Of a stretch of DNA of 64,000 nt, positions 4,869-64,000 are shown one piece after another. The notes below the pieces were generated by a model that saw only the letters and a program-made list of their open reading frames with translations, was not told where the DNA came from and did no database searches. The DNA comes from Oidiodendron maius Zn (lineage: Eukaryota; Ascomycota; Leotiomycetes; Myxotrichaceae). Location of the stretch: assembly GCA_000827325.1 (NCBI GenBank), contig KN832872.1, positions 2,108,001-2,172,000 on the forward strand, read 5' to 3'. Each line of letters starts with the position of its first letter. Positions within the stretch are counted from its first letter, which is position 1. A program made the position numbers and the translations under genes.

Positions 4869-4880
4869 GGTTATGAGCCC
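4869..4880 (+). other. Primer binding site of copia-1 (half-tRNA type)
   Basis: Directly after the left LTR comes GGTTATGAGCCC. This is complementary to the anticodon arm (GGGCTCATAACC) of eukaryotic initiator tRNA-Met, not to the 3' end of a tRNA. Drosophila copia is known to prime from a 5' half of initiator tRNA-Met using a nearly identical site. The same site follows the left LTR of copia-2 with one base changed. Confidence 0.7.
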
Positions 4881-7800
4881 GGCTCTTTAACATGGCTTCA
4901 ACTACAACCCCTCTTACGGATAGCAACCAGTATTACGCTTCGAAATACGGTCGCATCGCTATATTCACAGGTGATAACTATGCAGCCTTTGCAACGACCT
5001 GCCGCACTGCCCTAGTAGTGGTAGGAGCCTGGTCTATCGTTGATGGCACTGAAATTAGACCTGCTGGTGCTGGTGCAGGGCGCCGAGACTGGGATGATCG
5101 CAATCGAAAGGCTATACAGCTGATCAGCAGCTCAGTCAGTGCACCGTTCCAGCCTTGTATTACGGATGGTATTAATGAGGAGGACGCCAATATAATGTGG
5201 GCTGAACTAACTAAGGAGGATCGAGCTACAAGCAGGGTGTACCAGGCTAATCTATACTCTCAATTCAACCAAGCTGCTTGGAACTCTCAAACCGAATCAA
5301 TTCGAACCTTTCAAGCTCGACTAGAAGAGTTTAGAGCTCAATTAGTCAATACTGAGCGTACAATCAATAAGAATGATATAATGTGGAGGATAATATCCGC
5401 GATCCCGGATGAAGGAGACTAGAGGCAAGCTAGACAGTTCTGCTTGCAAGACAATTTGGACCTTGTAGCTATTATCACGACCCTACAATCTTACGAAAAA
5501 CCTGTTACGGGTACTCCAGGATTGGCTGCAGCTGGAGCTACAGCTGCCCTAGCTAATTCAGGGCCGAATTCTGGATCCCAGCGTCCTACAGGCCACAACA
5601 ATACAAGAGGTGGCTGTAGAGGATCTGCAAGAGGCTGCGGATGTGGCTGTGGAAGAGGAATACAAAAGGGTGGAAGAGGAGGTCATTTACAAGGCAACAA
5701 GGACACCTGCTTCTTCTGTAATAAGCAGGGATATCTGTAACATGATTGCTTCAAATACAAGAAGGCAAAAGAGGCTCTTAATAATCAGGGAGAAGAGTAT
5801 ATAAATACAGTCTTTCACTTCAATCAAATAGAGCCAGATTGTTCTCTTTACTTGACTGATCCTGAATACGCCTGTATAACCAACTCAAATGGATCCTGGG
5901 CAGTGGATTCAGGCACAACGTGTTATTTTAGTGGATTTACGGGTGATTTTACAGCCCTGAAGCGATGGGCAACCCCACGGATAGTGAGGACAGCAGATAA
6001 TACGGCATTTGAGGCTCTTGGTTCAGGAGATATTGAGCTGCAGACGACCTATAGGCCGTATATCCTACAGAACGTGTGGTTCATACCAGAATTCAGCTGC
6101 CGGCTAGTCTTAACTGCAATGCTTAATGATGAGGGTATTGTAGTAACCTTTGAGAACTGCAATTTACAAGCAACCTACAGATCAAATACAGTATTCTCAG
6201 GCTCCGGGAAGCTAGGACTATATTATATTGATTTACAGACCGATTTAGTAATGGCAACAACCTCAACGCTATCGTCTATAGATGTAGGCTCTGGAATCCT
6301 GCCTGTAATACAGTCGCTACGAGAGCTTTGGTACAATCGTCTCGGTCATCCGAATTATCGGACTGTAGAAAAGATACCGGAGCATGCAGATGGGATATCC
6401 TTCCGTAAATTGACTGCAGCAGATCAAATTGCAGGTGATACGGCATGTGAAAGCTGCTTAGCTGGCTGTATGAAGGAATCCTTTAATAAGAAGACTAATA
6501 CTCGCACTACAGGTAAGCTAGTATGATTATACTGTGATATATCTGGAATACAGGATAAGAGTATCTGAGGATATCGATACTTCTTACTGGTTACGGATGA
6601 TGCAACTAGGTGTACCTGGATCCGTTACCTTAAGAGCAAATCCGTACAGGACTGCGTCCCTGTCTTTAAGCAACTAGTCAATGAATTAGAATATGAAACC
6701 GGCCGTAATGTGGTATATATACGGGCCGATAATAGCAAAGGAGAGTTTGGATCTGAATTTCAAGGCTATCTAAACAATAAGTATATTATATTCGAGCCGT
6801 CCCTAGTATACAAACACTCCCTGAACGGAGTGATCGAAAGGGCTATAGCAGTGGTCAACAAGACAGCCAGGTCGATCCTATATAGGGCAAAGGCTCCCTC
6901 ACGGCTCTGGTGCCTTGCAACAGAGCATGCAGTCTATTTGAAGAATCGACTGCTAACGACTGCCCTTCCCTGGGGTGACTCTACAGATGCATGTACGCCG
7001 CTGCAGGCGTTCACTAGCCTGAAGCTGAATCTGAGCGTCTTACGGACCTGGGGATATGTAGCATACCCCCTAAATTCGCTCGAACGGATACCCAGGAAGT
7101 AGGATCCTAGAATATAAGGAGAGCATATATTTGTCGGCCTAAAAGGCAATAAGATCTGGAGGTTCTTGAACCTAGAGACCCTGAAAGAAGAGGTCTCTGT
7201 AGACGTTGAATTCCATGAGTTCAAGTTCCCTATTATAGCTGAAGATGCTAACGGTCGACTGTTACCTAGGAAGCCCGCACTAGTACCCACGGACACCCTG
7301 TAGCTGCCAGAGCTCAGAACAGGAGCGTCTGGAGCTAATTTACAGCCGCTAGAGCATCCTGCTGATGCGTCTAGGACTGATTTACGGACGAAAGCTGCTA
7401 TTACGGACCGTATCTCATCTGAGAAGCAGATTCAAGAGGCTCAGACTCCTGGAAACAGTGTAAGTGCTGAGTATTCTGGCCGTAATCTACCTGTATAAAA
7501 GACGGTTAGGTTTATAGAGGCAGATAGTACAAGAGGTGAGGCTGTTGAGCCTGTACAAGGTAGCAGAGGAGTTTTACCTGCACCTAGAGTCAGTGGTGAA
7601 GCTGTAAAGGCGTTTCCTGATCTCTCTAGCAGAGGTGTATTGCCTGCCCCTTCTTATAATAGGGAGTTACGGACTAAAGGTCTGAACTTAGCAGCTATCT
7701 TTAAGCAAACACGGTCCGGCAGGGTGCCTAAGCTGACTGTTTTCACTGAATCTGTGGCACGGCTTGTTATAGAGCTACAGGCCGTCTATATTGAGGGTGA

Positions 7801-9601
7801 TTCTAGTTCAATTAAGGTCCCTGCTACACCCTTTAAGTCTGTTTCGCTCGAGGAGGCCATAAAGGAGGACGCTCCTGTATAGAAGAAAGCGCTATTAAGT
7901 GAACTTCAGTCCCTGAAGAATACATGTACCTTCTTGATCGTTCCGGTCCCTAAGGGCTGAAGGGTAATCCAATATAGGTAGGTTTTATAGAAGAAACTAG
8001 ATGCTAAAGGTGACCTGGCTAGACGTAAGGCCAAGGTCGTAATTAAGGGCTTTGAACAACAGTATGGTCTTGATTATTTTGCCACCTTTGCATCCGTTAC
8101 TAAGTTTAATATATTACGAGTTCTTCTTGTTATTATTATGGAAATGGATCTTGAAGCAGATCATATTGATATTGATACTGCATTCCTGAATCCTGTCTTA
8201 AAGGAGGAAGTTTATATAGAGTTACTGGAGTATTTTGAGTTATTATATCCTGATATTAAGCCTGGAACCTGTTTACGGCTCTTAAAATCTCTTTACGGAT
8301 TAAAACAAGCTCCTAGGGAGTGGTTTCAGGAAGTCAATTCATTCTTCCAGAGCTTAGGATTTAATCCTACAGATGCAGATCCGAATCTCTTTATCTGTAA
8401 TGGAGTGTATATATTACTTTATATGGATGATATACTAATTGCAGGCCGCCCGGACGATATTGCAGCTATAAAGCAGCAAATTACAGCTAAGTGGAAGTGT
8501 AAGGATCTAGGACTAGTTACAACATTTGTCGGCTTTCAAATTATAAGGGATCAAGCAGCTAAGACCTTGATCATTCATCAAACAGCCTATATTACAAGAC
8601 TCCTGGAACGATTTAAGCTCGATAAATCTAATCCTATACACTTGCCGATTCCAGCTAATACAGTCCTAAAGCTCAAGCCGGATATTTATCCTACAAACCA
8701 AAACCAACCGCTATAGCCCGTTGAAACAATAGTCTACAGGCAGGCTGTTGGTTGCTTGCTTTATCTGACGAATTATACTCGTCCTGATCTGTTGTATCCA
8801 GTTGGATAGCTAGCTAGGCATATGCAGAACCCTTGGATTAATCACTTACGGCTTGTAAAGCAGGCCCTTCGCTACCTCAATGGCACCCGAAACCTAGGGA
8901 TCAGATATCAGTTTACAGGCAAGAGACCTAACCCTTACGACCTGTATTCTGATGCGACCTGGGGCTCCGAAAGTGATTGTATATCCTTTCAAGGCTGGGT
9001 TGTCACCAGGGCAGGGGGAGCGATATCATGGGCATCACAACGCCAGCGGTCTACAGCCTTAAGCTTAATAGAGGCTGAGTTTATAGCTGCTAGTGAAGCC
9101 GCAAAAGAAGCAGCATGGCTTGAAAAGCTTATTACAGCTCTTAACGACCATGTTACAGAGCTACCTACGCTCCGCTGTGATAACTTAGGAGCAGTGTCAC
9201 TGGTTTATGACCCGAAATATCATGCAAAATCAAAACATATAGACATCCGTTATATGTTTATACGGAACGATTTGATTGCTCAAAATAGACTCAAAGTCGA
9301 ACATATCCCTGGCTCGGATCAGCCAGCCGATATACTCACTAAGCAACTACCAGTTGAAGCAATACAGAGGCATATACAAACCCTAGGCATAAGAAGAGCC
9401 TAGAGTTGTATCAGAGGCACTCTTGTACCGTAATACAGACCCTTTCAGGCCTGTAGAGCTGCTGAACTTCCTATAAGGGAGACGTAAGCAGGCTACGGCT
9501 GTAGCTATAAGCTTACGGGCCGTTACGGGAGTTAATGAGGCCTAGATATCAGTGAAATACAGAGCTTAAGGTTGAGGCTTCGGATTATACGCAAGGGGGA
9601 G

Positions 9602-17031: not shown

Positions 17032-20000
17032 GGTTATAAGCCCGGCTCTTTAATATAGCTTCAACTATAACCCCTCTTACGGATAGCAACCAGTATTACG
17101 CTTCGAAATACAGTCGCATCGCTATATTCATAGGTGATAACTATACAGCCTTTGTAACGACCTGCCACACTGCCCTAGTAGTGGTAGGAGCCTGGTCTAT
17201 CGTTGATAGCACTGAAATTAGACCTGCTAGTGCTGGTGTAGGGCGCCAAGACTGGGATGATCGTAATCGAAAGGCTATACAGCTGATCAGCAGCTCAGTC
17301 AGCGTACCGTTCTAGCCTTATATTACAGATGGTATTAATAAGGAGGATACTAATATAATGTAGGCTGAACTAACTAAGGAGGATTGAGCTACAAGCAGGG
17401 TGCACCAGGCTAATCTATACTCTCAATTCAACCAAGCTACTTGGAACCCTTAAACCAAATCAATTTAAACCTTTTAAGCTTAACTAGAAGAGTTTAGAGC
17501 TTAATTAGTCAATATAGAACATGTAATCAATAAGAATAATATAATATAGAGGATAATATCTGTAATCCTGGATAAAGGAGACTAGAGGCAAGCCAGACAG
17601 TTCTACTTGCAAGACAATTTGGACCTTGTAGCTATTATCACAACCCTACAATCTTACAAAAAACCTATTACAGGTACTCCAGGATTGGCTGTAGCTGGAG
17701 CTATAGCTGCCCTAGCTAATTCAGGGCCGAATTCTGGATCCCAGTATCCTATAGGCTATAATAATACAAGAGGTGGCTGTAGAGGATCTGTAAGAGGCTA
17801 CAGGCATGGCTGTAGAAGAGGAATATAAAAGGGTGGAAGAGGAGATCATTTATAAGGCAACAAGGATACCTGCTTCTTCTATAATAAGCAGGGATATCTG
17901 TAATACAATTGCTTCAAATACAAGAAGGCAAAAGAGGCTCTTAATAACCAGGGAGAAGAGTATATAAATATAGTCTCTTATATCTCTTATTTCAATCAAA
18001 CAGAGCCAGATTGTTCCCTCTATCCGACTGACAATAAATACACCTATATAACCAACTCAAATAGATCCTAGGCAGTGGATTCGGGTGTAACATGTTATTT
18101 TAGTGGATTTATAGGTAATTTTACAGCCCTGAAGTAATAGGCAACCCTACAGATAGTGAGGACAGCAGATAATACAGTATTTAAGGCTCTTGGTTCAGGA
18201 GACATTAAGCTATAGACAACCTATAGGCTGTATATCCTACAGAATATATGGTTTATACTAGAATTCAGCTACCGGCTAGTCTTAACTGTAATGCTTAATG
18301 ATGAGGGTATTATAGTAACCTTTAAGAACTGCAATTTACAAGCAACCTATAGATCAAATATAGTATTCTTAGGCTCCAGGAAGCTAGGACTATATTATAT
18401 TGATTTATAGACTAATTCAGCAATAGTAACAACCTTAATACTATTATCTATAGATATAGGCTCTGGAATCCTGCCTATAATACAGTTGCTATAAGAGCTT
18501 TAGTACAATCGTCTTAGTTATCTGAATTATTAGACTATAGAAAAGATACCAGAGTATATAGATAGGATATCCTTCTGTAAATTGACTATAGCAGATCAAA
18601 TTACAGGTAATATAATATATGAAAGCTACTTAGCTAGCTATATAAAGGAATCCTTTAATAAGAAGACTAATACTTACACTACAGGTAAGCTAGTGCGATT
18701 ACACTATAATATATCCGGAATATAGGATAAGAGTATCTAAGGATATCGATACTTCTTACTGGTTATAGATAATATAACTAGGTGTACCTGGATCCGTTAC
18801 CTTAAGAGCAAATCCGTATAGGACTGTATCCCTGTCTTTAAGCAACTAGTCAATAAATTAGAACATAAAACCGGCTGTAATATAGTATATATACAGGCTG
18901 ATAATAGCAAAGGAGAGTTTGGATCTGAATTTCAAGGCTATCTAAACAATAAGTATATTATATTTAAGCTGTCCCTAGTATATAAACACTCCCTGAACGG
19001 AGTGATTGAAAGGGCTATAGCAGTAGTCAACAAGACAGCCAGGTCAATCCTATATAGGGCAAAGGCTCCCTTATAGCTCTAGTACCTTATAATAGAGTAT
19101 ATAGTCTATTTGAAGAATCGACTGCTGACGACTGCCCTTCCCTAGGGTAACTCTATAGATATATATATACCACTATAGGCATTTACTGGCCTGAAGCCGA
19201 ATCTGAGCGTCTTACAGACCTGGGGATATATAGTATACCCTCTAAATTCGCTTGAATGGATACCCAGGAAGTGGGATCCTAGAATACAAGGAGAGTATGT
19301 GTTTATCGGCCTAAAAGGCAATAAGATCTGGAGGTTCTTGAATCTAGAGACCCTGAAAGAAGAGGTCTCTGTAAACGTTGAATTCTATGAGTTCAAGTTC
19401 CCTATTATAGCTAAAGATACTAACGGTTGACTGTTACCTAGGAAGCCTATACTAGTACCTACAGACACCCTGCAGCTACCAGAGCTCAGAACAGGAGCGT
19501 CTGGAGCTAATTTACAGCTACTAGAGCATCCTGCTGATATGTCTAGGACTGATTTACAGACAAAAGCTGCTATTATAGACTGTATTTTATCTGAGAAGCA
19601 GATTCGAGAGGCTTAGACTTCTAGAAACAGTACAAGTGCTGAGTATTCTAGCTATAATCTACCTGTATAAAAGACGGTTAGGTTTATAGAGGCAGATAGT
19701 ACAAGAGGTAAGGCTGTTGAGCCTGTATACAGTAGCAGAGGAGCTTTACCTGTACCTAGAGTTAGTGGTAAAGCTGTAAAAGCGTTTCCTGATCTCTCTA
19801 GCGGAGGTGTTTTACCTGCCCCTTCTTATAATAGGGAGTTACAGACTAAAGGTCTGAACTCAGCAGCTATCTTTAAGCAAATACAGTCCGGCAGGGTGCC
19901 TAAGCTGACTGTTTTTACTGAATCTATAGTACGGCTTGTTATAGAGCTACAGGCTGTCTATATTAAGGGTGATTCTAGTTCAATTGAGGTCCCTGCTATA

Positions 20001-21774
20001 CCCTTTAAGTCTGTTTTGCTTAAGGAGGCTATAAAGGAGGATACTCCTATATAGAAGAAAGCGCTATTAAGTGAACTTCAGTCCCTAAAGAATATATATA
20101 CCTTCTTGATTGTTCTGGTCCCTAAAGGCTGAAGGGTAATCTAATATAGGTAGGTTTTACGGAAGAAACTAGATGCTAAAGGCAACCTAGCTAGATATAA
20201 GGCCAGGGTTGTAATTAAGGGCTTTAAACAACAGTATAGTCTTGATTACTTTACTACCTTTATATCTGTTGCTAAGTTTAATACATTACAGGTCCTTCTT
20301 GTTATTATTATAGAACTAGACCTTAAAGCAGATTATATTAATATTAATACTGTATTCTTGAATCCTGCCTTAAAGGAGGAAGTTTATATAGAGTTACTGG
20401 AGTATTTTGAGTTATTATACCCTGATATTAAGCCTAGAACCTATTTATAGCTCTTAAAATCTCTTTACAGATTAAAACAAGCTTCTAGGGAGTGGTTTCA
20501 GGAAGTCAATTTATTCTTCCAGAGCTTAGGATTTAATCCTATAGATATAGATCCGAATCTCTTTATCTGTAATAGAGTATATATATTACTTTATATAGAT
20601 AATATACTAATTGTAGGCCGCCTGGACGATATTGCAGCTATAAAGCAGCAAATTACAGCTAAGTGGAAGTATAAGGATCTAGGACTAGTTATAACATTTA
20701 TTGGCTTTTAAATTATAAGGGATCAAGTAGCTAAGACCTTGATTATTTATCAAACAGCCTATATTACAAGACTCCTGGAACAATTTAAGCTCGATAAATC
20801 TAATCCTATATACTTACTGATTCCAGCTAATATAGTCCTAAAGCTTAAGCCAGATATTCATCCTATAAACCGAAACCAACCGCTATAGCCTGTTAAAACA
20901 ACAGTCTACAGGCAGGCTATTGGTTGCTTGCTTTATCTGATAAATTGTACTTGTCCTGATCTGTTGTATCTAGTTGGACAGCTAGCTAGGTATATACAGA
21001 ACCCTTGGATTGATCACTTACGGCTTATAAAGCAGGCCCTTCACTACCTCAATAGCACCCGAAACCTAGGGATTAGATATCAGTTTATAGGCAAGAGACC
21101 TAACCCTTACGACCTGTATTCTAATGCGACCTGGGGCTCCGAAAGTGATTGTATATCCTTTCAAGGCTGGGTTATCACCAGGGTAGAGGGAGCAATATTA
21201 TAGGCATTACAACGCTAGCGGTCTATAGCCTTAAGCTTAATGGAGGCTGAGTTTATAGCTGCTAGTGAAGCCACAAAAGAAGCAGTATGGCTTGAAAAGC
21301 TTATTACGGCTCTTAACGACTATATTACAGAGCTACCTATACTCTGCTGTAATAACTTAGGAGCAGTGTTACTGGTTTATAACCCGAAATATCATATAAA
21401 ATCAAAGTATATAGATATCTGTTATATGTTTATATAGAACGATTTGATTGCTCAAAATAGACTCAAAGTCGAATATATCCCTGGCTCGGATCAGCCAGCC
21501 GATATACTCACTAAGCAACTGCTAGTTGAAGCAATACAGAGGTATATATAAACCCTAGGCATGAGAAGAGTCTAGAGTTGTATCAGGGGCACTCTTGTAC
21601 CGTAATACAGACCCTTTCAGGTATATAGAGCTGCTGAACTTCCTATAAGGGAGATATAAGCAGGCTATGGCTGTAGCTATAAGCTTACGGGCCGTTACGG
21701 GAGTTAATGAGGCCTAGATATCAGTGAAATATAGAGCTCAAGGTTGAGGCTTTGGATTATAACGCAAGGGGGAG

Positions 21775-44346: not shown

Positions 44347-45861
44347 TCAACAAAAGTTCGACGATGGCCTTGGCTCAATCCTCATTGTGACAGATGCCCC
44401 TACTCCTTCCAAACCGGTCATGACAGATTCTATTTGTGCGCCAGTGCACACCATGTCAAGGGTTATCTGGTAGGTAGTCGAGGCGTTGTCGCGGTCTTTA
44501 GGGCCTTTTTGTGTGTAGGGAGCTCGGCCGCTCGTTGTCGTAGACATATCAGTCGGGAGAATTGCCGTTGAATGGGAGAGCGGGGGGTAACTAGGCGCTC
44601 TGGTGGGCGACGGCCTCATATCTAGAGCATCGGCGTCTGGGTATCAATCAGCATTTCATCAAGTCTTACTTTGTCTCTGCGAGTATAGGGATGAATATGC
44701 TTACTGTATGGTGTATACGACACGTGTGTGGTCGTAGCGCCTGGTTCTTGGACGGCCCCGAAGAAACGTGAATAGTCCCTAGGGAGGTCCAAAGGTGGCG
44801 ACTGGGGATTTGAGGAGAGAAATATGTTCTTATCGGAAGACATATCATCCGCCGTCTCGGTAGTCCAGGTCTCCGTGGCAGTGGGAGTAGGCAAAGGTGC
44901 AACTCTGTCGTAATGGAGGGAATTGGTGTCTAAGAGAATGCCATCTCCGCCTCTCTCCGCAAATTCATCTTGTGCTCTCGGCCTTGTTGACTTCAAGTCT
45001 AGCCTCCGGGCGTGGCTGTTGGGTTTGCCCATGTACTGGCTATGTGAAACCCTGCTCTCATCCTCGTCCCCGTACCTGCGGTATCTACTTTCAATGTTCT
45101 CGTCCTCATCCTCGTCGTCCTCGTCATCCTCATTGTCCTCCTCTCCATCATCACCTCCGGCTATCTTGTCGCTATCGTGGCCCTGGATATCGGGGCTTTT
45201 CCTCGCTTCTGACATTGGACTTCCCTGCATGGTTGTGGCACCTAGAGAGCCAATGGGGGATATATTAGATGTCGTAGCAGCAATCTGTTTCTTGGGCTTC
45301 GAGCCATTATGTTCGTCGCACAGCCGTAGGGTGGAGTAACGGTTCTTAAGTGCAAGGCCCGTCCTCTTTGGAACATGTGAAGATGATATGGCGGCCCAGT
45401 TGGTGCCATGGGTAAGCACGGCGTGGAGCAGCTGCAAATCTTCTGTTGGAGTCCAGTCGTAATGGTTGATGCCCGGATCCAGTGCCTGACTCCAGTGACT
45501 AGAGCATTGGTCGGGATTTCTAGACATCACAGCTTGTGCCACCCGGTTCCAGCTAAACCCATGCTTAAAAACAGCTTTAATCAACCGTTCGTCCTCTCTC
45601 TCGGACCATGGCCCCTTGTCTATACCTACTGCAAGACTATTCCACCATCTCCTACGGCAGTCTTTATTTGATCGTCCGGGAACAGACTTGGCCAGCTCTC
45701 GCCACAGCAGGGGGCGCGATTGTGTAAGTGCTGTGCGATATGAGTATGTATCATAGCTTGGGGACAGAAAAGGCTCAGCCATTCGGGCACCAACCTGTGT
45801 TAACCGCCCACTGAAGAGCGGCATCCTCCTCCGGTGTCCAATTTCGTCGAGCTCGGGCCAT
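44347..45861 (-). CDS. MYB transcription factor with three repeats (MYB-1)
   Basis: Predicted exons are 45861-45795, 45730-44705 and 44636-44347, giving 460 residues. The start is set at MARARRNWTPEEDAAL, which opens the first MYB repeat; the longer open frame upstream is non-coding. Intron 1 (45794-45731) and intron 2 (44704-44637, GTAAGC..CAG) restore the frame. Repeats: R1 NWTPEEDAAL..RRRWWNSL, R2 KGPWSEREDERL..CSSHWSQ, R3 DWTPTEDLQLLH..LKNRYSTL, each with the spaced tryptophans of a DNA-binding MYB helix set. After them come a basic KPKKQ patch, an Asp/Glu-rich run, and a conserved C-terminal unit (YQITLDMVCTGAQIESVM). This is a nuclear regulator by family; targets are unknown. It is paralogous to, and divergent from, the gene at 47495-48991. 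Confidence 0.82.
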
Positions 45862-46960
45862 AGTATCAGCACAACAGATATTGAGATTTTCTTCCAGGGG
45901 CTTGATACAAGTCGTTGAAAATGCCCCTCAAATCGATCTCTGATCATCCCAGAACACCTAGAATATCTTATAGATAACACTAGAAGCAGGCACGCAGTGA
46001 TCCCTGCACGCACATTGCTTGTCTGTCATCGAATACCTAACAGGGCCTCACTAATCGCCATTTAATAACACCACTGTTGGAAGAATGGAAGAGTCGCGAC
46101 CGAGCGGTACTCGGGCGGCACAGCCATCGGACGAGTCTCATTCTCGACTAGGTTACAGCTGCGGGGACAATCACCGATCTGCAAGAGCGTGGGCGAGATG
46201 CGGCTGATCGAGCCCCAACCCCCGTGCAAGATAGGCACAATTTGTCCTACAGGGAGTTGATATAGCTATCAGCTGCTACCAAGGTGGACACGCGGCATGT
46301 AGAGGATGCACGGCACACGGCACGGGAGCTAAAGCTTACATAGCATCTGCAAACTAGCAAGTCTACTACGAGAATTCCCGAACCGGGGGAGGATCAGGCT
46401 CCGAGAATCTTTTCCCGCCTCCTAGTACCTTCCGTAAGCAGGCCAATGCACTTGGCGAGGGAGGGACTTGATGGCCTCTCATGTGCGCCGGAGGAGTATT
46501 TCTCACGGGAGCCACATGTCGCGCCTTGCTACCGGACAAGAAGACGGACTTTTGAGCTATTGTCAGCGCTATGACGGGAGTGCGTCTTAGCTTTACAGGG
46601 CCATGCTTAAATGTACGGCATGTGCAAGCTTACGGCCGAAGCAACACAGTTCATCCTAGCTATTGGCCGCATATAGTAGTAAAAAGACTTCAGCCCGCCC
46701 GACTCACGCCCAGGCATCATCCAAGGCATCGTCCAAAAATGACGCCTTGGTTGATAAGCACTAAGGATGGAGTGACATGTAGCCTAGGAGTACTTGTTGG
46801 TTTTGGCCTAGATGTTCGGATTTCCCACGCATGTGGCGGCATAGGCTGCTTTGCAGTAGATACTGTATCCGTGTGTCCTTACGTAGATAAGTACTGGAAG
46901 TGCATCCCCTGCTCTGCGCTTCATGGGTTCCCTGACCAATATAAATACGTAGATGTTCCG
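45862..46960. other. Intergenic region between the divergent MYB genes (MYB-1 side)
   Basis: This holds the MYB-1 promoter region. A 40-codon open frame at about 46085 has no known match. An imperfect inverted repeat of about 160 bp starts near 46853; its inner arms (CCCTGCTCTGCGCTTC and GAAGCGAAGAGCAGGG) run into the MITE that follows. Confidence 0.4.
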
Positions 46961-47494: not shown

Positions 47495-48991
47495 ATGCCA
47501 AGTGCCAGAAGAAATTGGACGCCAGACGAGGATGCTCTTCTCCGCCGTGCCGTACAACTTGGTGAGCCTTGCTTATTCCTGTCTCATGGCATGGTCGTGG
47601 CCTGATTCTAAATAGCTCAATCTCAATCCCGGCCACTACTGTGGAGAGAGCTAGCGAAATCAGTTCCAGGACGATCGAATAAAGGCTGTCGCAGAAGATG
47701 GTGGAATAGTCTAGCAGGTGGTACGACCAAGGGGCCTTGGTCTACGGAAGAGGACGAGCGACTGATCGCAGCCGTTCAAAAGTACGGAACGCGTTGGCGA
47801 CAAGTCTCGCGGGAAGTTGGGTCAAGAAACGCTGACCAATGCTCGAGTCACTGGTGTCAGGTGCTAGATCCGAATATTAACTATTGTGACTGGACTCCGC
47901 AAGAGGTTTCTTCCCTTTCCAAACAAACAGTGATGCGCTACTGAGGGATCACTAACAATGGTCAGGATACGGACTTGTTGCACGCTATTCTTACCCATGG
48001 CACCAACTGGACCACCATTGCCGCCTCTCATACGCCGGCCAGAACCACTCTTGCTGTTAGGAATCGCTACTCGACCTTGCGGTTGAAGAACGCCAACGTG
48101 AATAGACACAGAGCAAACGGCGAAGAGGTCGACAAGGCAGTGTCCAAGGATACAGGGTCAAGTAATGACATAAATGGGATCTTTCAAGCCCAAGGATGGG
48201 ATGGGGCTGAAGGGACATCTGAGTCAGACGATGAAGACGACGGAGACGATGGAGATGAGGACGACGAGGACTGTTATAAAGAGGATGTTGAAGAGGAGGA
48301 TATACAAGATGTCGATATGGAGGACACAACTCAGGAGAAAGATAACGCAGCGCAAGCGAAAGACACAGCCAACTCCAGCGCCGCGTACCGAAGGGACACC
48401 ATGACAATCCAGGTCCCAGACTCGAGCTTCATTACATGGGACAAACAAAGCCAGATCAATAACCGAACAAATAGTTCCACCGGCCATACGACTCCGCCTA
48501 CAATGTCCGTGGATAACCATACACTGTATGACGCTCAACTCAAATTCGGCAGCAGCTCTTCTCTGCCGTATCCGGCTCCCAGCGGGAGATATTACTACGA
48601 GCAGGACCCGGATTCAATGGGCCTGGGTTTGCCATACACAGCATACGGTGGGTGTTTTGTATTCTCCGAGTTTCTCCGCCTCACATCAACTACTCTCGCT
48701 AACATCCCAGCAGATACAAGCCCCTTGGAATCGCATGCAGACTTGCCCATGTTGTCTGGCTTTCAGACTTCATCCCAGTCAACACCGACTCTTTCAGCAG
48801 ATGCGCCTGTTCCTATGAGTATGGGCCTTGGGACGCCATTGAGCACGAGGTCTTCCACAGGAAGCCCGCACTCAACTGTGTATAAAGTATCCGTAAACAT
48901 GGTCTGCACACGCGGGCAGTTAGATGCCGTCCTGGGTCAGCTGGCCGATGTAGGCTCGGGTGTGACGATAAAGCTGGACACAAAGTCATAG
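47495..48991 (+). CDS. MYB transcription factor with three repeats (MYB-2)
   Basis: Predicted exons are 47495-47561, 47616-47905, 47966-48647 and 48711-48991, giving 439 residues. The last intron (48648-48710, GTGGGT..CAG) is 63 bp and in frame, so it could be retained (460 residues). I prefer splicing because MYB-1 has an intron at the same place. The protein starts MPSARRNWTPDEDALL and has three MYB repeats closely matching MYB-1 (R2 KGPWSTEEDERLIAAV; R3 DWTPQEDTDLLHAI). A long Asp/Glu-rich stretch and the C-terminal unit YKVSVNMVCTRGQLDAVL follow. An extra intron (47906-47965) splits repeat 3 and is absent from MYB-1. It is a nuclear DNA-binding regulator by family; targets are unknown. 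Confidence 0.82.
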
Positions 48992-52946: not shown

Positions 52947-54988
52947 TTAGTATTTGGTGTTCTTAATATCAGCGGCCTGTTTCTCGGCAAGCGTGTCTGT
53001 TTTCCACCGTCAGCCTTGACTCTCAACAAACAATGCCAACGTCTGCTCTCCCGCACTTACAAACTTGGATCTGAGGAGCCGGTCCCGGCGGCAAGAAGGG
53101 GAAGGAAGAGGAGTCAATGACTCTCACTGCACGAGGGTTGTCAGCTGATCTTGCTCTTAGATATTGTTAGGTCTGGCCGGTTCGGGCCACGACTCACATT
53201 TCTTCACGCCGAATACCCGGCCGCGGCTGTCAACGACGGCCAAGGGATCATCCGCTTTGCCCATCTTGTTGCTGGAGAAGGCATGCTGGAACGGTTGGAT
53301 GTAACCCCTGAGAAAGTCGAGGATCTGCTCGTCAGTCTGCACTTGCACACCAGGGACAGTCTCGGGGCCGATCAAGGCGGGGCCAATGACACTAGACGCG
53401 AGGGCTTGGCGGACGCGCTTGAAGCCGGCGAGCATGACATCGACGTCGGACGGGTGGGTAAACATGGCGGGGTTGATCAATGGGGGGTCGCTGTTGCTTG
53501 ACGAGGCGATGGACACGTTGCCCACCGACTGCGGTGCGAAGAGGACGGCAACCGTGGTGGCATAGTTGCCGCCTGGGACCGGCGGGACGCTCGAGTTGAC
53601 GAAGCTGCTGGGGATTGCGCTCGGCACGAAGGCGTACGCAATCTCGGGCCAGTCGGCCGGCAGCTTATCCAGCGCCTGGTTTGTCACTGTGGAGAAGTTT
53701 ACGCGGAGCTCGGCGGGAATCTTCTCCATAGCCATCTGGTCGCCTCCGACGCTGGCCAACGGGCCCCTTGCATAGTTGTTGAAATCACTAATGGCTTGTC
53801 CCAGATAGGCTGGGTCCTCGAGTTCCGATCCTGTTATCATATTGACTTGGTGCGATATGTAGATGACAATGTGCTCCCGGAGGTTCTGGCCAACACCGGG
53901 TCGGTCTGCGATGACGGGGATATCTAGGGACTGAAGCAGGGCCTTGGGTCCGACACCCGACACCATGAGCATTTGCGGGGATTGGAAGACGCCTGCGGAC
54001 AGGAGAACCTCCTTGCGGGCCGAGATGATGCAGTTGGCACCGACCTGAACACCGATCGCCTCTTTGTTCCCATTGAAGACAATGCGCTGGGCCATGGTGT
54101 TGTTAAAGAGCGCGAGATTCCTCCGGCCGACCACGGGGCGCAAGTAAGCCGCCTCGGATGAGGAGCGGAAGCCGGTGGTATGGTTGACCGTGTTCATGTG
54201 GAACGAGTGCCCCAGGAGATTGCCGTTGATAAATGCATTCACCTTCTCGATGCCAATGGCTTGCCACGCGACCGAGAGCCACGTGCCCCATGACTGGGCG
54301 TAGGCCGGATAGGTAACGGCGAGACCGCCTCCCTCCGAGGTGTCGTTTGGATCGTACATCGGAGTCGCATTGGCGAAGCGCTCCTGGTTGTCGGGAGGGG
54401 TGAAGTTCATCGTCCGGGCATAAAACTCCAACATGTTATCGTACAGGAAGGAATTGTCGCCGACCGCATCGGCAAACATCTGATGGGCACCTACAGACGA
54501 ATGCCCGTACGCCATGGAGTTGATGTCGCTACAGCCGCCAAAGGCCTTTGGCCGAAAATAGGGGCGGGACTGATTGAGTAGCCCCTAGTAAATGGAGTTT
54601 AGCCATGCTGGATCTCTCACGAAGGTCCGCGAGAGAACGGGGTGAGGGGGGGGGGACCGACGCTTTGTGGAGTGGTGCTGAACGGCCACATCATGGGATC
54701 CATGGTGTTGTAGAAGTTGCCCGCGTACATGGGAACCTGCGTCCAGTTCCCATGGACCTCTTCCGGGAAAGTGCCAGCCTCAATGACCGCAACTGTGGTG
54801 GCAGGATTCTCCGTGAGCCGGTTCGCCAGAACCAGGCCTGCAGTGCCTCCACCGATGATCACATAGTCAAATCTCTGGCCTAGATTCGGGTGTGGGCAAG
54901 AGGAGGAGGGCACGGAAGGCACTGCGGATGCGGAGCCCAGGAGCAACCCCGTTACGAGAAGCAGCGGTCCACAGCCATGACCACGCAT
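52947..54988 (-). CDS. Secreted GMC (glucose-methanol-choline) FAD oxidoreductase, four exons
   Basis: Flavoprotein oxidising an alcohol to a carbonyl. Predicted exons are 54988-54662, 54584-53198, 53126-53061 and 52996-52947, giving 609 residues. The start opens a signal peptide ([17 protein letters not shown]), so it is secreted or luminal. Motifs: FAD dinucleotide fold [22 protein letters not shown] signature 1 region [14 protein letters not shown], signature 2 [17 protein letters not shown], and the C-terminal tail [14 protein letters not shown]. The first intron has an unusual donor (GTCGGT); without splicing, the frame would break just after a poly-C run. A catalytic His is present in [10 protein letters not shown], but the second catalytic position, normally His in PPGHPQ, reads PPGPAPQ here. 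It resembles the patulin-synthase branch. Same strand as the P450 upstream, within the tailoring cluster. Confidence 0.85.
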
Positions 54989-56169
54989 GATAGATGGTTT
55001 GCCTGGTTCCTGATAGCGATAGAGGTGCGGGTGGGACGTGGAAAGACAATGGCGGAGGAGTGAGACGGCGACTCGAGTGGCGGGCTCCCGGTTCTATTTC
55101 TATTTCTCCCTCGTATGCCAGCGACTCGGCCTCGTCGCGTCAGTCTCGACACCAACTCTGCCATTACGTACGGGCTAGAACTGAAGGCTTTAAGGTTAGG
55201 GGTGCTGGCCAGCCTTTCTGAACCAGCCAGGCAGTCCGCCGTCCGAGCGTGCTGACGATGACATTCCGCTGGAGAATCCCATTGGGTGTGTGATCCGTGG
55301 GAAGGCGGCGCCGCGGCAGGCTTTGTGGAAAGGAGTTACTCAGTGTCGTGAAGATTGGTGATGTGAGAAGATGCGACTGGCGGGGAGCCAGTATCTGCAC
55401 GTGAGCTGAAATTCCCCTTCCCGCATGGTTCCAGCTGACGGCACGACTACTGTCCGATCCTGCCGCCCCCCGGAATGGGACCAACCCAAGACGGGGGCAG
55501 GAGTGGCACCAGATCCTAATCCCAAATCATATGTACCGCAGTAACTGTGTACCTGACATGGGGGGTTCGTTGACATTCGGCCGCCACGTGGCCGCACCCT
55601 GATTCCGAGGGCTTCTCATTTAAATAGATATTGGAGACGGGGTTGTCAACTGCAATGCACGTGATCCTTCAGGGAAACACGACGCTATCGTTCCCCTTAT
55701 ACTTAAATATACGTAAGATTCTGTACGGCATCAAGTATTTTTGAAGCTGTTTTGAAGCTGTTTTGAAGACATTTATAGCCACAAAAACACAACGGTTAGG
55801 AGGGTGGGGGCGGGGGTTGGTTACGGTTAGTCAGGGGGTTGGAGGGTGTTTGAATCCCCATATTAGTATACCTTTTGTAAATTAAGTGGTGTCTTGGTAA
55901 GGGTAGGCGAAATATGGCCATGGTAGAGCTGAACCCTATATTTACAGCAGAATAAAGATTAGACGCACATCTTCAAGGTACAGTATGGCATATACATTAC
56001 ACCTGCGTCTCGCTTAAGTCGACATGGGGAGACAGGTTGATAACAGCACCCAGTATTAGTTAAAAGGGGAACTACCAACCGGGCCACGGTACGACGACGG
56101 ATTCGAGTTCAACGGTCACAACGAGGAGGAGCAAGCCAAATTGATCTATCCATTCAGGGCGCGTAAAAA
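54989..56169. other. Intergenic between the GMC and P450 genes, no gene seen
   Basis: This holds the GMC promoter region. CCACGTGGCC near 55584 contains an E-box CACGTG. A direct repeat of GAAGCTGTTTT (two units and a part) lies at about 55742-55766. GT-rich text follows near 55800-55850. No coding signal. Confidence 0.45.
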
Positions 56170-57654
56170 CTACGGCCATTCGATATCAATACGATGGTCC
56201 TTGATATCACCATTGAACCACTCAATCACATCAATCTTCTCTTGACACGTCCTCGCCCCCTCCAGGGCCTCGCTCTCCACGACCGCCAGGACCGTCTCAT
56301 GCAGTTGATGCATGGCCAGATTCTTGCCGATGCAGGCACGCAACCCGGCTCCAAAGGGCATCATGCTCCGGTGCATCTGCGGTCGCCGCAGCCCGCCGTC
56401 GTCGCCGTTCCCCAGCCACCGTTCGGGTCGGAAGGAGAATGGATCGGGGAAGACGTCGGGATCATGGTGCAGGTTGTATGCAGCACAACCGACGATGGTG
56501 CCGGCGGGGAGCACCATCTTACCAACCGACAGTCCTGTCGCCGGCACCACCCGGGTCAACCGCGTGGGGTTCGCCATGCCGAGACGTAGACTCTCCTTAA
56601 CACATGCCCGTAGGTATGGGAGGCCGTCCAGCGTGTGAGTATCTCGCCCGCTAGCAGCGCGGATCTCCGCCAGCAGACGACGCCGCACCGTGGCATCCCG
56701 CACCAGGTGGAAGAGCGTTGTGGCGAGCATAACTGCCGTCGAGTCAGCGCCCGCGAACACAATAGCCTTGCTCTGCGCGCCGGCCTCGTCCCGGGAGACG
56801 CCAGCGACCATGAGCCGCTCTTGGTAGTAGTGGGGATCCTTGGCGTCGTCTGTCGTTGTACGGCCCTGCATGACGCCTTCGATGAAGCGGTCGAGCTTCA
56901 GGAAGGATTCCGTGACGTGGTCGCTCGCGCTTAAGCGCTGCGAGATGGTGTAGCACAACTTGAATATGGAGTTGGGCAGCAGAGAAAAGCGGGCAAAAGC
57001 CACGATGGCGTGGATAAAAGGGTTCGCGCTGAGCTTGGCCGTCTCTAGCTGCCTCTCCTCGAGGCTGAGATGAGCATTCTCGTCCAGCCCGCCGTACCGC
57101 TGGCCGAGCAGGTAGACGGTCACAACATCAATGGAGAGACGCGCGCAGAGGTCCAGAAGATCCGTCTTGACATGCGCCCCGCCCAACTGGCGAAGCTGCG
57201 CGACGAACTCGGTGATACAGCTCTTAATCACGCCATCTGGAGCGACCGCCGCCCTCAGCTGTACGGGAGCGAAGAGAGGAGCGACCGCCTTTGCGCGAAG
57301 GTCACGGTAGACCGTGTCCGTGGACGAGAAGATGGACGCAACCGGCCCGAGGTCAAAGTTGTGATAGCGGTCATCCTTGGGGAAGCCGCCGGCAGCGACG
57401 TAGATGTCACGGATGGCAATGCTGTCCGCGATAGATACCGAGTTCGGCGCAACCCGAACCACCTTGCCGTACATCTGGTGGTAATGGCGCAACACACGCC
57501 CTTCGATCCCAAGGTAGCATATGGTGTTGAGGAACAAGGAGCTGGCCTTGGCCATGAATGGGCCAGGCACGTCGCGCAGCGCATGGAAGCGCCACCGGTA
57601 CACCGTTCGAATGAGGACGGCCCCGAGCACAACTTTGCCCAGAAACGCGAACAT
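56170..57654 (-). CDS. Cytochrome P450 monooxygenase of the tailoring cluster
   Basis: Intronless, 494 residues. An N-terminal membrane anchor (FLGKVVLGAVLIRTVYRW) is followed by the hinge RDVPGPF. The I helix is VFAGADSTAVMLATTLFHL (AGxxS/T oxygen-activation motif). The K helix has ESLR, then FRPERW, and the haem loop is PFGAGLRACIGKNLAMHQ with the Cys ligand. It is a microsomal monooxygenase, likely hydroxylating or oxidatively coupling the cluster metabolite. The overall pattern is that of the fungal E-class P450s close to pisatin demethylase-like enzymes; I cannot name the CYP family or substrate. It is divergent from the O-methyltransferase gene across a 650 bp region, and on the same strand as the GMC gene. 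Confidence 0.93.
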   Translation of the reverse strand: MFAFLGKVVLGAVLIRTVYRWRFHALRDVPGPFMAKASSLFLNTICYLGIEGRVLRHYHQMYGKVVRVAPNSVSIADSIAIRDIYVAAGGFPKDDRYHNFDLGPVASIFSSTDTVYRDLRAKAVAPLFAPVQLRAAVAPDGVIKSCITEFVAQLRQLGGAHVKTDLLDLCARLSIDVVTVYLLGQRYGGLDENAHLSLEERQLETAKLSANPFIHAIVAFARFSLLPNSIFKLCYTISQRLSASDHVTESFLKLDRFIEGVMQGRTTTDDAKDPHYYQERLMVAGVSRDEAGAQSKAIVFAGADSTAVMLATTLFHLVRDATVRRRLLAEIRAASGRDTHTLDGLPYLRACVKESLRLGMANPTRLTRVVPATGLSVGKMVLPAGTIVGCAAYNLHHDPDVFPDPFSFRPERWLGNGDDGGLRRPQMHRSMMPFGAGLRACIGKNLAMHQLHETVLAVVESEALEGARTCQEKIDVIEWFNGDIKDHRIDIEWP

Positions 57655-58304
57655 TAGGTCGAGTGAGTGTCAAAGCGCTCTCAGGACGGGAATGTTATTA
57701 TGGATGAGGATATGCGTAGACCGTGCAGTTGTTAAGTCGGCAGAGATATTGTATCTGGTTGTGCCGCCATCGGGCTACCGAACGGCATCCACTGCACAGA
57801 AAAGTTCGACATGAGCTCCCGCGTCTCGGTGGGATGCCGTGGCGAATTCAACCTCATTCCCACCCCGAGTCCATGGTCGAGCTCCCATGGCACAAGAGGG
57901 CACGACTGGCGGTCGCTGACGTGGGTCGGATCCCACCTACTCGGTTCCTCTCTGTCCCGAAAAACACCAAGTAAGCTGGAAATACTCGGCACCGGGTAAC
58001 AGAACAATATTGAAGCACTTGGTTTTGGGGTAAAAACGACGCTTCGGGGTCAGACACAGTAAGCCCAAATGTCATCAGGCAAGTGCCCAAGTGACGAGGT
58101 AATCATCACTACACCAGCCTCAGCGGATGCTTACTAGTCCTGTAACGTCCCGACACTGGTAGTGAGGGCGGCAGTATTTGTGCACGTCTTTTTGGGCTCG
58201 CCGATTCTGCAGAGATCCCATTGTCTGCCCTGTAGAAGACTTTTGTCCCATAGAGACGCGTAACATTAGGAGCTTGAATCCACGATACGGCTGTCGGCGC
58301 TGTC
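57655..58304. promoter_or_regulatory. Shared upstream region of the divergent P450 and O-methyltransferase genes
   Basis: A 650 bp stretch between two start codons facing away from each other, with no coding signal of its own. A bidirectional promoter is inferred from position. I see no clear TATA box. Candidate words such as CTGACGTGGG (near 57917) and repeated CGG triplets could be regulator sites, but I cannot support one. Confidence 0.4.
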
Positions 58305-59708
58305 ATGGCTCTGTCATCGAATGGCACAAACGGCCATGGAGTTCACAACATAAAGCATGTTTTAGAGACGCTGAAGAATGTTGACGCCAGCTCCTTTGCC
58401 AATGATGCCGACCGAATTCAGGCAGTCGTGGAAGCCTATGCATTGGTCTCGAGACTCGAAACTCCATGGGAGTTCGTGCTGAGAACCTGTATGGGTCAGG
58501 TATTGGCTTCACCCCCCTTCCCACAGTCCAAGCACAAGGCTGAACTAGATCTTAGCCGGCGCTGGGGGCCGCCCTAAAGGTTGGAAAGGACCTGGGGCTC
58601 TACGACAAGTGGCACGCCCGCGGAGATGTAGAGATGACGCGCGAGGAGCTGGCAAAGATGTTACCGACTTGCGACCCGGACCTGCTCTGTCAGTCTCCGT
58701 AACTACGCGCGCGAAACAGACAACCACTGACCATGTAGGACAGTCCGCATACTCCGCCACCTTGCGGCAAATCATGTGCTAGACGAGACCTCTATCGGGG
58801 TTTTCAAGCCCACTCCGCTGAGTATCTCGTTCACCAAGCCCGTCTTTGGAGAGTGGATTAACCACCTGTACGATGCCACAATTCCGGTCTTCTACAAGAT
58901 GCCTGTATACCTGGCCCTTACCGGGTATAAGAATCCTGTTGATCCTACCAGCGGCGTCTTCCAGCACGCCAAGGGCTGGAAGGGCGATATGTTTCACTAC
59001 TACGAGGCGCATCCCGTCGAGGGGGCGTCCTTCGACCATGTCATGGGCGGCGTCATGGCCAACCAGGCCCGGTGGGTGGACATCTTCCCTTCTCAGGTCC
59101 TCTTCGACACCGACAAGGGCGGCGATACCCCGCTCGTCGTCGATGTGGGCGGCAACATTGGTCACGATATCGAGAAGTTTCGCGAGTCGCATCCCGACAC
59201 GGCGGCCCGTCTGTACCTCGAGGACCGGCCCGAGGTGGTGGAGCGGTCCAAGTGTCCAAAGACTGTCAACAGGCTCGGCTATGACTTCTTCATGCCTCAG
59301 CCCATCAAAGGTAAGCTGTGTCTTTTTCATGCTCGGCCGGTCGGGACAATCACTAACGAGATGGGGTTCGCAGGAGCACGCGCATACTACATGCATGGGG
59401 TCCTGCACGACTGGTCCGACGAGCCGGCACGCAAGATCCTGGAGATGCAGAGGGACGCCATGACGCCGGGATACAGCACTCTCCTGATCCACGACCACAT
59501 CGCGCCCGAAGCCCTGGCCCATCCGCACACCACGGCTTACGATCTCACCATGATGGGCATGGTGGCGGGCGGAGAGAGGAAGGAGTCGGATTGGCACAAG
59601 CTGTTGGCATCTGCGGGCTACAAGGTTCGAAAGATTTGGACGTCGCCGCTCGCCATACAAGGCGTCATCGAGGCTGAACTTCTCGTGGATGTGCAGGACG
59701 GCCCATGA
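58305..59708 (+). CDS. SAM-dependent O-methyltransferase (fungal plant-COMT type), four exons
   Basis: Transfers a methyl group from S-adenosylmethionine to a hydroxyl of the metabolite. Predicted exons are 58305-58499, 58556-58688, 58744-59310 and 59374-59708, giving 409 residues, typical for the family. Introns are 56, 55 and 63 bp; the last is in frame and easily missed. A winged-helix dimerisation region (KVGKDLGLYDKW; EELAKMLPTCDPDLL; RILRHLAANHVLDET) precedes the methyltransferase fold. SAM motif I is VVDVGGNIGHDIEKF (the third glycine of the usual GGG is Asn). The catalytic base is His in MHGVLHDWSDEPA, and LLIHDHIAPE follows. It resembles the OmtA-like enzymes of fungal polyketide pathways. 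It converges with the prenyltransferase gene, 161 bp away. Confidence 0.9.
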
Positions 59709-59869
59709 TGGCCCGGCCATGAGAGAGGTGATTCGCTGGACCGCGTAGCCGTGGCATGCTATATATTTCATAGGTATCTAATGCAATACACTACCACTAT
59801 TTTACGCCTCCGGACTCTAGGCTGGTTGATGCCGTCCAAAAAGCACCACGCAAACCGGCTCCCCAAGTT

Positions 59870-61346
59870 CTAGTAGCGGGGTGTCTCGTACAACTCAGGA
59901 GTGACATAGACCTGCAGACTCAGGTCGGCGGAGCCCTCCTTTCTCCCGATGCCGATAAACGTAAATATCCCCGGCTTCTCATCCAGTCTTCGATATGTAC
60001 TGTTGTTATCCGACCGGTTAGCAGAGATTGTCTACGGATGAACGGGGCTAGTAAACATACAAGACATTCTGCACCCGCTCCTCCAGCGTCTTCCCTCCAT
60101 CGTGCCATCCGTATCTGGTCATCCAGGCGTCGATGCCCTGCGCCGTCGCCTCGTCATTTGGTGCCCTGCGCGCCGGATAGAAGTAGAGCTTCGGTACAGG
60201 GTAAGGCGTGTCCGGTGTCAGGGAGAAGTACAGTGACGTAGGCTTTGTCTCGAAGATGTTGCGCCGCTTCTTCTCGGCCCACGTCTCCGCCCTGATCTTG
60301 TGGGCGGGGTAGTCCCGGCCGTGCGCGAGGTCCATCAGTTCCCGGATCTTCTCCTTGTCATCGTCGAGGTCCGGGATGCGCCCACCCAAGGTGTAGTAGT
60401 CCCAGATCTCATCGAAGGTGTTGCCCCAGTACCGCACGTAGACCTTGAGGCGCGCCATTCCCGCCGGGACGAAGTCGCAGGCCATGCCGCGCCCGCACTC
60501 CTCGTACTCTGGGTGATCCGCGACATAGTCCTCGATCATCTTCATCCCGTGCAGGAGATTCGGGTACGACCCGATATCGGGGATCTGGCGGATGCCTATG
60601 GAAAGGGCCTGGAAGCGGGTCAGGCGCCGGTCGATCGCCGCGAAGTCGGGTGGGAAGTAGCTCTTGACCATAACGGGGAGCATACCCGGGGCCTTTTCCA
60701 ATATCTTGGCGTTGATGTCGAAACCCAGGATGGTGGGCGTCTGGAAGCCAACCCTACGGACCAAGTCTCTCTGCTTTTCCGGGGATGCGTTTGCATAGAC
60801 GAACCATCGCTCAAATGCACGGTGCTGTTGCGAGTCAGGTTCAACATCCGCGTGTTCGAGAGAGAAAGGTAATGGGGGAAATGATAGGAGGTAGCATACC
60901 CAAGTCTCGTCATAGAGGGGACTTTTCTGGCGAAGCACATCTAAGGCCTTCTCAACCGTGGTCACGTCTAAAGGCCGATCCGTCCTGGCCGGCCGCAGCT
61001 CAGAGAGGTCGAGGACAAAGCGGACGCCGGCCTTCTTCGTCGAGCCCTTGAACTCGAAGCTGTATTCAAAAGGGTTACCGTCCCAGCCCACTGCAGCGGG
61101 CCGGGACCACGGCTCGGGCTTCCCGCCCAGCAAGGGACAGATGGTGCCGCGATAGAAATCGAGGAACTGGCGTCGGCATTCCTCTGGGTAGTCAGCCTCG
61201 ACCAGCATGCGGGACAAATCCTGTCCGCTAGTGAGCCACCAGTATGTAGGGCCATCGCCAACTTCTGCCTCCACGGAGGTGGTGCCGATCGGGTCGGTCG
61301 ATGGCGTCTTGATCGCCAAGGTGGGGTCTATCATCATCACGGCCAT
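59870..61346 (-). CDS. DMATS-type aromatic/indole prenyltransferase, three exons
   Basis: Soluble ABBA-fold enzyme transferring a dimethylallyl or longer prenyl group to an aromatic acceptor without an Asp-rich metal motif. Predicted exons are 61346-60900, 60824-60061 and 59999-59870, giving 446 residues, the normal size. The first intron (60899-60825, 75 bp) is in frame; splicing joins LYDETW to HRAFERWFVYANASPE. The second (60060-60000, GTATGT..CAG) restores a proper C-terminus, FTFIGIGRKEGSADLSLQ then VYVTPELY. Visible family features: YWWLTSGQDLSRML near the N-terminus, KAGVRFVLDLS, TPTILGFDIN, MARLKVYVRYWG and KLYFYPARRAPNDE, which include the Arg/Lys and Tyr residues that bind the diphosphate. 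The acceptor (tryptophan, indole alkaloid or phenolic polyketide) cannot be told from the sequence. It is the most specific marker of the cluster. Confidence 0.9.
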
Positions 61347-62542: not shown

Positions 62543-64000
62543 CCGACTAAAGACGGAAGCACAACTGCTTTTCTGCAATTATTTTATTGCTACTAGAGAA
62601 CTCGGATGTTATTAAAATGACCTCAAGACCTAGCCATTACTGCCTGTTCGTTGAGCCCATCCTTACTATTAAATAGGCTACCTACCCCAGTGTGTGCTGT
62701 AGGGACTCTGGGATACGTATCACGAATCAGGTGAAACTAGCAGGCTAAATCCTGTAGTTCGCGCGAATGCTAAACTAAGAAAGGAAAGGGAATCTAGCTA
62801 GTATGCAGAGATTTATGTGTGTGCAATCTCCCAATAACACGGCGCCTCGCAGGCAAACAATTGTTCCTTCATCCACTAAGCAACTTATCAGAGTCACGCG
62901 CCCATTTTTAGGCTCGAATCTCGATCTGTTCTCTTAATTTTTCCATTCTGCGGTGGCTAAATTCCACCAGGCATGCAGTGATGGAAGAAAGGTATTTGCA
63001 AAAGGATTCAACTTTTAACTATAGAGCGGAAAGAATGGGTTCAATATACAAATTATCTTCTATTTAACTAGTATAGCTATATTAAGATAACTCAATAAGC
63101 TTGAGGTACATGCTGAGCATATGCCCCTTTACCTGGGGTGGCAGAGTTGGGTATCGTGGGGGGAGGAAAGAGAGGGGACCAAGCAGCAATTATGATCTCC
63201 CACAGACTTCCACTAGCTAGATGGCTCCCAAATTTCGTATTTTTATATCCTTCAAAGCATTTATTATGCTTTACCATACAATATCTGCCTGAATTGCATT
63301 CTGATCGCATGAAATGGGTTAATTCTCAACCGTGGTAATGATAATATTTCTCTAAATAACCCATCGGACAGGCACCTAACAAACAACCTTGGAGACCCTA
63401 AACGTGCGATGCGCTAGCCTTGCGCTAACTTTAAGCAATAGCGCTCATACCCACAATGCCGGAAGTTTAATTTAATCTCCCCATGGTAACCACGTGGTTT
63501 AGCGGCGGTTGGGGGAGTTGCAGTGGAAAGTTCCGACAGTATCGCAACCTTAGGCATTAACTTCACCTGTTAGGTGTTGCGGTATCCCGGAAGCTAGTCC
63601 AGTTTCGGTGCTGAGTAACCAACTCAAATGATGATACTTGTGCTCTGAATACTAATGTTATAGACTGTGTGAAGGAGTACATGTTAAGGATGCTGAAACC
63701 ACTTGATTTGAGTTATTTGAGACTGTATTTGGAATTCTAGTCCTGTCACGAAGTATAAAGGTGGTAGTTGAACCCACCCTTAGAAAATACAGAGCATCAT
63801 TACCTGAAAATACGAGCCTATCATATACATCTACACTAAGCCCTACTTAATGTAACAGTTATAAGTCTGGATTAACGCAAAAAGTACCTTTATACCTAAT
63901 TTACTATACTACAATATATCAAATCGAAAGCTATAGCTATAAGGTATTAGATACTACTACTATAAGCCTTCTAAAAACGTTAAAGTGAAGCGTGCCAGTC
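62543..64000. other. No gene seen
   Basis: This AT-rich tail has only chance open frames (for example 63138-63338). It holds a perfect 12 bp palindrome AACCACGTGGTT at 63488-63499 inside a longer imperfect palindrome. An inverted pair follows at about 63529-63590 (TTCCGACAGTATCGCAACC and GGTGTTGCGGTATCCCGGAA). The last 200 bp look like RIP-affected repeat DNA. Confidence 0.4.

Follow-up and report, generated by a model that had tools for sequence, protein, structure and literature searches.

Four genes for a GMC oxidoreductase, a P450, an O-methyltransferase and a DMATS prenyltransferase as the probable left edge of an aromatic polyketide cluster stretched by a retrotransposon

Analysis of a 64,000-nucleotide stretch of fungal DNA (C3:2108001-2172000, referred to here as the window) within a 45.9-Mb, 58-contig assembly indicates that four genes at window positions 52947-61346, encoding a GMC oxidoreductase, a cytochrome P450, an O-methyltransferase (OMT) and a DMATS-family prenyltransferase, probably form the left edge of one cluster for a prenylated, C-methylated aromatic polyketide. 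The first-pass annotation, made from the window alone, had described them as four intact tailoring genes without a visible backbone enzyme, either an orphan cluster or the margin of a larger one. The apparent orphan is more simply read as an ordinary cluster that is cut by the window edge and stretched by a retrotransposon. The presence of the four named genes is confirmed by gene models and strong Pfam matches, and their span runs from the final base of the GMC stop codon (52947) to the initial base of the DMATS ATG (61346). Pfam profiles were run on single open frames, not on spliced proteins; the E-values of the four genes extend from 2e-64 to 4.3e-17, and the matches are therefore beyond chance. 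Both the introns and the gene families at the locus are of the filamentous-fungus type. The four genes, in window positions, are:

52947-54988, minus strand: GMC oxidoreductase gene, patulin-synthase-like; 609-aa gene model, Pfam matches on exon 2, match to patulin synthase
56170-57654, minus strand: cytochrome P450; single exon, 494 aa; Pfam p450 1.2e-50
58305-59708, plus strand: OMT; 409-aa model in four exons; Pfam Methyltransf_2 4.3e-17
59870-61346, minus strand: DMATS-family aromatic prenyltransferase; 471-aa model; exons 60061-61346 and 59870-59999

A genome-wide ketosynthase (KS) search returned at least 98 scored matches, merging into at least 51 loci, one of which (C3:2184145-2184929) lies on the same contig to the right of the window. 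It belongs to a polyketide synthase (PKS) gene whose ATG, at C3:2182980, is separated from the DMATS ATG at C3:2169346 by 13.6 kb. The absence of a backbone enzyme is thus limited to the window, and since a PKS is found within ordinary cluster distance the locus does not qualify as an orphan cluster; the alternative offered by the first-pass annotation, that of an edge continuing to the right, is the better supported. The same annotation had proposed a rightward search for a PKS or a nonribosomal peptide synthetase (NRPS). An NRPS backbone was rejected, since all 35 scored condensation-domain matches fall on contigs other than C3. The features to the right of the four genes are:

C3:2171575-2177185: long terminal repeat (LTR) retrotransposon, 5.6 kb, its left end in the window at 63575-64000; recognized by LTRs and target duplication
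ATG near C3:2182499: second P450, divergent from the PKS and to its left; Pfam 7.1e-20 and 2.5e-6 on two frames
C3:2182977-2190784, five open frames: non-reducing-type PKS, SAT-KS-AT-PT-ACP-CMeT-hydrolase; Pfam and NCBIfam
right of the PKS: MFS transporter, transcription-factor-like gene and short-chain dehydrogenase/reductase (SDR); Pfam

Along the five PKS frames, Pfam domains follow one another in the order SAT, KS, AT, PP-binding, C-methyltransferase and Abhydrolase_3. The fungal product-template (PT) model of NCBIfam scores 131.8 bits over model positions 13-327 of 329, below its 168-bit cut-off, and the PT region also has weak dehydratase-type matches; neither a KR nor an ER domain was matched in the five frames scanned. 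The set of SAT, KS, AT, PT and ACP without reducing domains is that of a non-reducing PKS, with the PT assigned on a score below cut-off. Among solved structures, the main frame is closest to the methyltransferase part of the citrinin PKS (entry 5mpt, E 1.2e-84). Two of the four frame junctions have good intron candidates and one a moderate candidate only, while the fourth, inside the KS, was placed by eye because the computed intron candidates were unsuitable; with these junctions the gene is complete-looking. The transcription-factor-like gene is weakly matched, at 7.9e-5 and 22.1 bits (cut-off 21). Further to the right, C3:2207.7-2218.1 kb reads N in the assembly.

The retrotransposon separates the DMATS gene from the PKS and its neighbours. 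It has LTRs ~95% alike and a 5-bp target duplication, TTAGG, on both flanks. Within it the TpA/ApT ratio reaches 1.3-1.5, a pattern like that of repeat-induced point mutation, compared with <1.1 in all other 1.5-kb bins except one (1.31 at 2159501, left of the GMC gene). The genome holds 13 further matches to >5.1 kb of the element. Minus the retrotransposon, the gap between DMATS and PKS shrinks to ~8 kb, holding a HET-domain gene and the second P450.

Along the contig we observe, from left to right, the genes for GMC, P450, OMT and DMATS, the LTR insertion, and the genes for the HET-domain protein, the second P450, the PKS, the MFS transporter, the transcription factor (weak match) and the SDR. 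From this content, order and domain composition we infer a single pathway, with a cluster that would extend 29 kb rightward from the DMATS start, to ~C3:2198.1 kb. The PKS would make a C-methylated aromatic acid (methylorsellinate-like), to be freed by the C-terminal hydrolase; the DMATS enzyme would prenylate this acid, the two P450s would hydroxylate, the OMT would methylate a phenol, and the secreted GMC protein would act last, or its oxidase activity would have been lost. Should both halves form one cluster, the expected product is an aromatic polyketide carrying prenyl, O-methyl and C-methyl groups.

Proximity and enzyme type are consistent with this proposal, as is, more weakly, promoter sequence. 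Stretches as near as 13.6 kb to any of the 51 merged KS loci make up ~2.9% of the genome. The closest solved relative of the OMT is MpaG' of mycophenolic acid biosynthesis (PDB 8xte, E 2.7e-48), and such an OMT suits a C-methylating PKS because the MpaG' pathway begins with 5-methylorsellinic acid made by a non-reducing PKS, as described in the accessible part of PMC9134587. The likeness to the mycophenolic acid cluster (MpaC', MpaG') lies in this methyltransferase, in a non-reducing PKS and in an aromatic prenylation; the prenylation of that pathway is carried out by the farnesyl-transferring MpaA' (same partial source), whereas the enzyme here is of the DMATS type. A CGG-N12-CCG motif occurs in five of seven promoter stretches, spanning both halves of the proposed cluster (GMC, P450/OMT, DMATS, MFS and transcription factor/SDR). 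Dinucleotide shuffles give p 0.0005 for the spacing itself and 0.022 when all 26 inverted or everted spacings are allowed for; 13 direct-repeat spacings lie outside this correction. A scan for shared 8-mers, left out of the argument, gave 20 common to three promoters, compared with 9-13 in five shuffles.

The DMATS gene itself is well defined. Its Pfam match is to Trp_DMAT (PF11991; 2e-64, 218.6 bits, cut-off 25), and exon 1 scores 219.7 bits against NCBIfam TIGR03429, above the cut-off of 163.85, and 41.5 bits against the tryptophan dimethylallyltransferase equivalog TIGR03430, far under the 740.75 required. When aligned with both of the genome's other DMATS genes (C14:746609 and C26:129290; 25 and 27% identity), the single open frame proved to lack the C-terminus; the C-terminal region is in exon 2, past a 61-base GTATGT...CAG intron, the likeness having been judged by eye. 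All three DMATS matches of the genome, that of the window included, lie within ~25 kb of a KS, the distance on C26 being 22 kb, which also speaks for a single cluster here. The C14 gene is ~2.4 kb from a PKS (C14:739776-747880; L011, L012). On C26 (C26:129134-156691; L015-L017, L020) the DMATS gene is accompanied by a metallo-hydrolase, an FAD-binding enzyme, an MFS protein, a Zn2Cys6 protein and a PKS, and this locus resembles the neosartoricin-type clusters (DMATS, metallo-hydrolase, FAD monooxygenase and non-reducing PKS). The window locus has GMC and OMT genes in their place, and its PKS carries C-methyltransferase and hydrolase domains.

No second copy of the gene set was seen elsewhere in the genome, because the paralogs of OMT, GMC and DMATS sit at separate places (P450 paralogs were not searched). 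The best OMT paralogs are at C1:833832 and C10:1430053, and GMC paralogs are found at C14:77588 and C13:1345330, among others.

The P450 is one open frame with a heme motif FGAGLRACIG, KESLR, AGADST and an N-terminal anchor recognizable by eye; the OMT is assembled from exons 58305-58499, 58556-58688, 58744-59310 and 59374-59708, two of its three introns having off-consensus donors (GTATTG, GTCAGT); and the DMATS gene gains its second exon. The description as intact is doubtful for the GMC gene. Its proposed exons are 54662-54988, 53198-54584, 53061-53126 and 52947-52996, with the ATG at 54988 and Pfam matches to GMC_oxred_N (1.6e-22) and GMC_oxred_C (2e-21). Intron 1 (54585-54661), needed to close the frame, has a weak GTCGGT donor; both GMC paralogs compared are uninterrupted at this position, and patulin synthase, compared as protein and not as gene, spans it in the alignment without an insertion. 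Weak donors are not peculiar to this gene, given those of the OMT.

The resemblance of the GMC protein to patulin synthase, claimed in the first-pass annotation, is upheld: patulin synthase, PatE, is the closest solved relative (8bxl, E 1.6e-141, 476 bits, over residues 37-605). PatE is located in the cell wall and believed to be secreted, according to the accessible portion of PMC9134587, and secretion is likewise predicted for the protein here from an N-terminus resembling a signal peptide by eye; the model carries 10 N-glycosylation sequons. Judged against the family features set out in the available text of PMC6509819, the FAD motifs GxGxxG and hGGpp are present as GGGTAG and FGGCS (by eye), and the His/His or His/Asn catalytic pair is lacking. 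The first catalytic His is retained (QHAFSS); the second is replaced, PPGPAPQ standing in place of the PPGHPQ of patulin synthase, a replacement that depends on exon 3 of the gene model. Both His residues are retained in the two GMC paralogs examined (L018, THPQ; L019, PGHPQ). On sequence grounds the gene may thus be altered in function or in decay, and, given the exchanged second catalytic residue, the late oxidation that had been suggested for its product is questionable. A GMC protein without this residue is the unusual item of an otherwise ordinary cluster and, if the halves belong together, offers a handle on what relatives without the normal catalytic pair do.

Several observations weigh against a single cluster. 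The PKS/P450 and HET promoters lack the CGG-N12-CCG motif. Of its 18 occurrences in a 74-kb stretch only five fall in the promoters considered, and its flanking bases are without clear further likeness; the motif was chosen after looking, with the 13 direct-repeat spacings also scanned and left uncorrected, and an everted spacing-8 pattern is found in four of the seven promoters with a shuffle fraction of 0.007. The HET-domain gene between the halves would be an unusual cluster member, clusters may come into contact by accident, and another PKS (KS, AT, PT-region, ACP and thioesterase matches) lies ~57 kb left of the GMC gene. The main rival is accordingly a free-standing tailoring module that takes its scaffold from a PKS elsewhere, be it the one to the left or one on another contig, with the right-hand PKS group being separate. 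It has a precedent in the prenyl xanthone pathway of Aspergillus nidulans, where the prenyltransferase gene xptB adjoins xptC, a GMC gene, and both sit apart from the mdp PKS cluster, which is on another chromosome, so that xptA, xptB and xptC act on the product of a distant PKS (PMC3901194, PMC9890505 and PMC7842363, each available in part; the same excerpts name an SDR gene, AN7999, with the xpt genes and report no obvious effect on the pathway). Within the limits of these partial sources, the pairing of GMC with DMATS has been seen before, and so have tailoring genes set apart from their PKS. The split of the halves by the HET gene, the lack of the shared motif in the PKS promoter and the abundance of KS loci in the genome would all agree with such a module. 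However, a PKS group complete with P450, transporter and regulator-like gene stands nearby, the more so once the transposon is subtracted, and an MpaG'-like OMT fits a C-methylated orsellinate-type substrate; we therefore regard the detached module as distinctly less probable than a single cluster, though a serious competitor.

Compared by description, both loci have a prenyltransferase gene near a GMC gene, but here a C-methylating PKS is 13.6 kb off and P450 and OMT genes stand between GMC and DMATS. The first-pass statement that a secreted flavoenzyme with an aromatic prenyltransferase could not be matched to a known product does not hold for the pair, while the full combination of C-methylating non-reducing PKS, DMATS, MpaG'-like OMT and GMC found no match in literature searches and is absent from the available parts of PMC9890505 and PMC7842363. 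For XptC, a GMC protein, closure of a dihydropyran ring has been suggested (PMC9890505, in part). The GMC protein here might be imagined as a variant without alcohol oxidation that performs an extracellular, non-redox ring closure on a prenylated, C-methylated aromatic, a compound class then arising from this unmatched gene combination; this is a long shot, and a literature search on versicolorin B synthase turned up no paper to confirm a non-redox GMC precedent.

It would also be conceivable, although we consider it improbable, that the cluster is decaying, with the GMC gene already non-functional and the region split by the transposon insertion. The replaced catalytic residue and weak-donor intron of the GMC gene, the nearby LTR element with its high TpA/ApT and an AT-rich island at window 16-42 kb are in line with decay, but the P450 remains one open frame, and the frames of OMT, DMATS and PKS can be joined by introns, albeit with two off-consensus OMT donors and one PKS junction placed by eye.

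The left side of the window holds further features. The island, at window 16000-42000, is gene-poor, with GC down to 22%, and lies left of the proposed cluster, as do Myb-type DNA-binding matches at window 44625-46025 and 47945-48988, the second of them marginal (24.5 bits, cut-off 24.4). Copia-type retrotransposon frames are found at window 4877-9400 (RVT_2 4.4e-43, Pol_BBD 1.6e-11), with a similar fragment at 19671-20051. At C3:2098699-2106528 (L021), ~4 kb left of the window, a PKS with KS, AT, PT-region, ACP and thioesterase is accompanied by an SDR, and together with a P450 at the left end of the window (1661-3322) it possibly constitutes a separate cluster.

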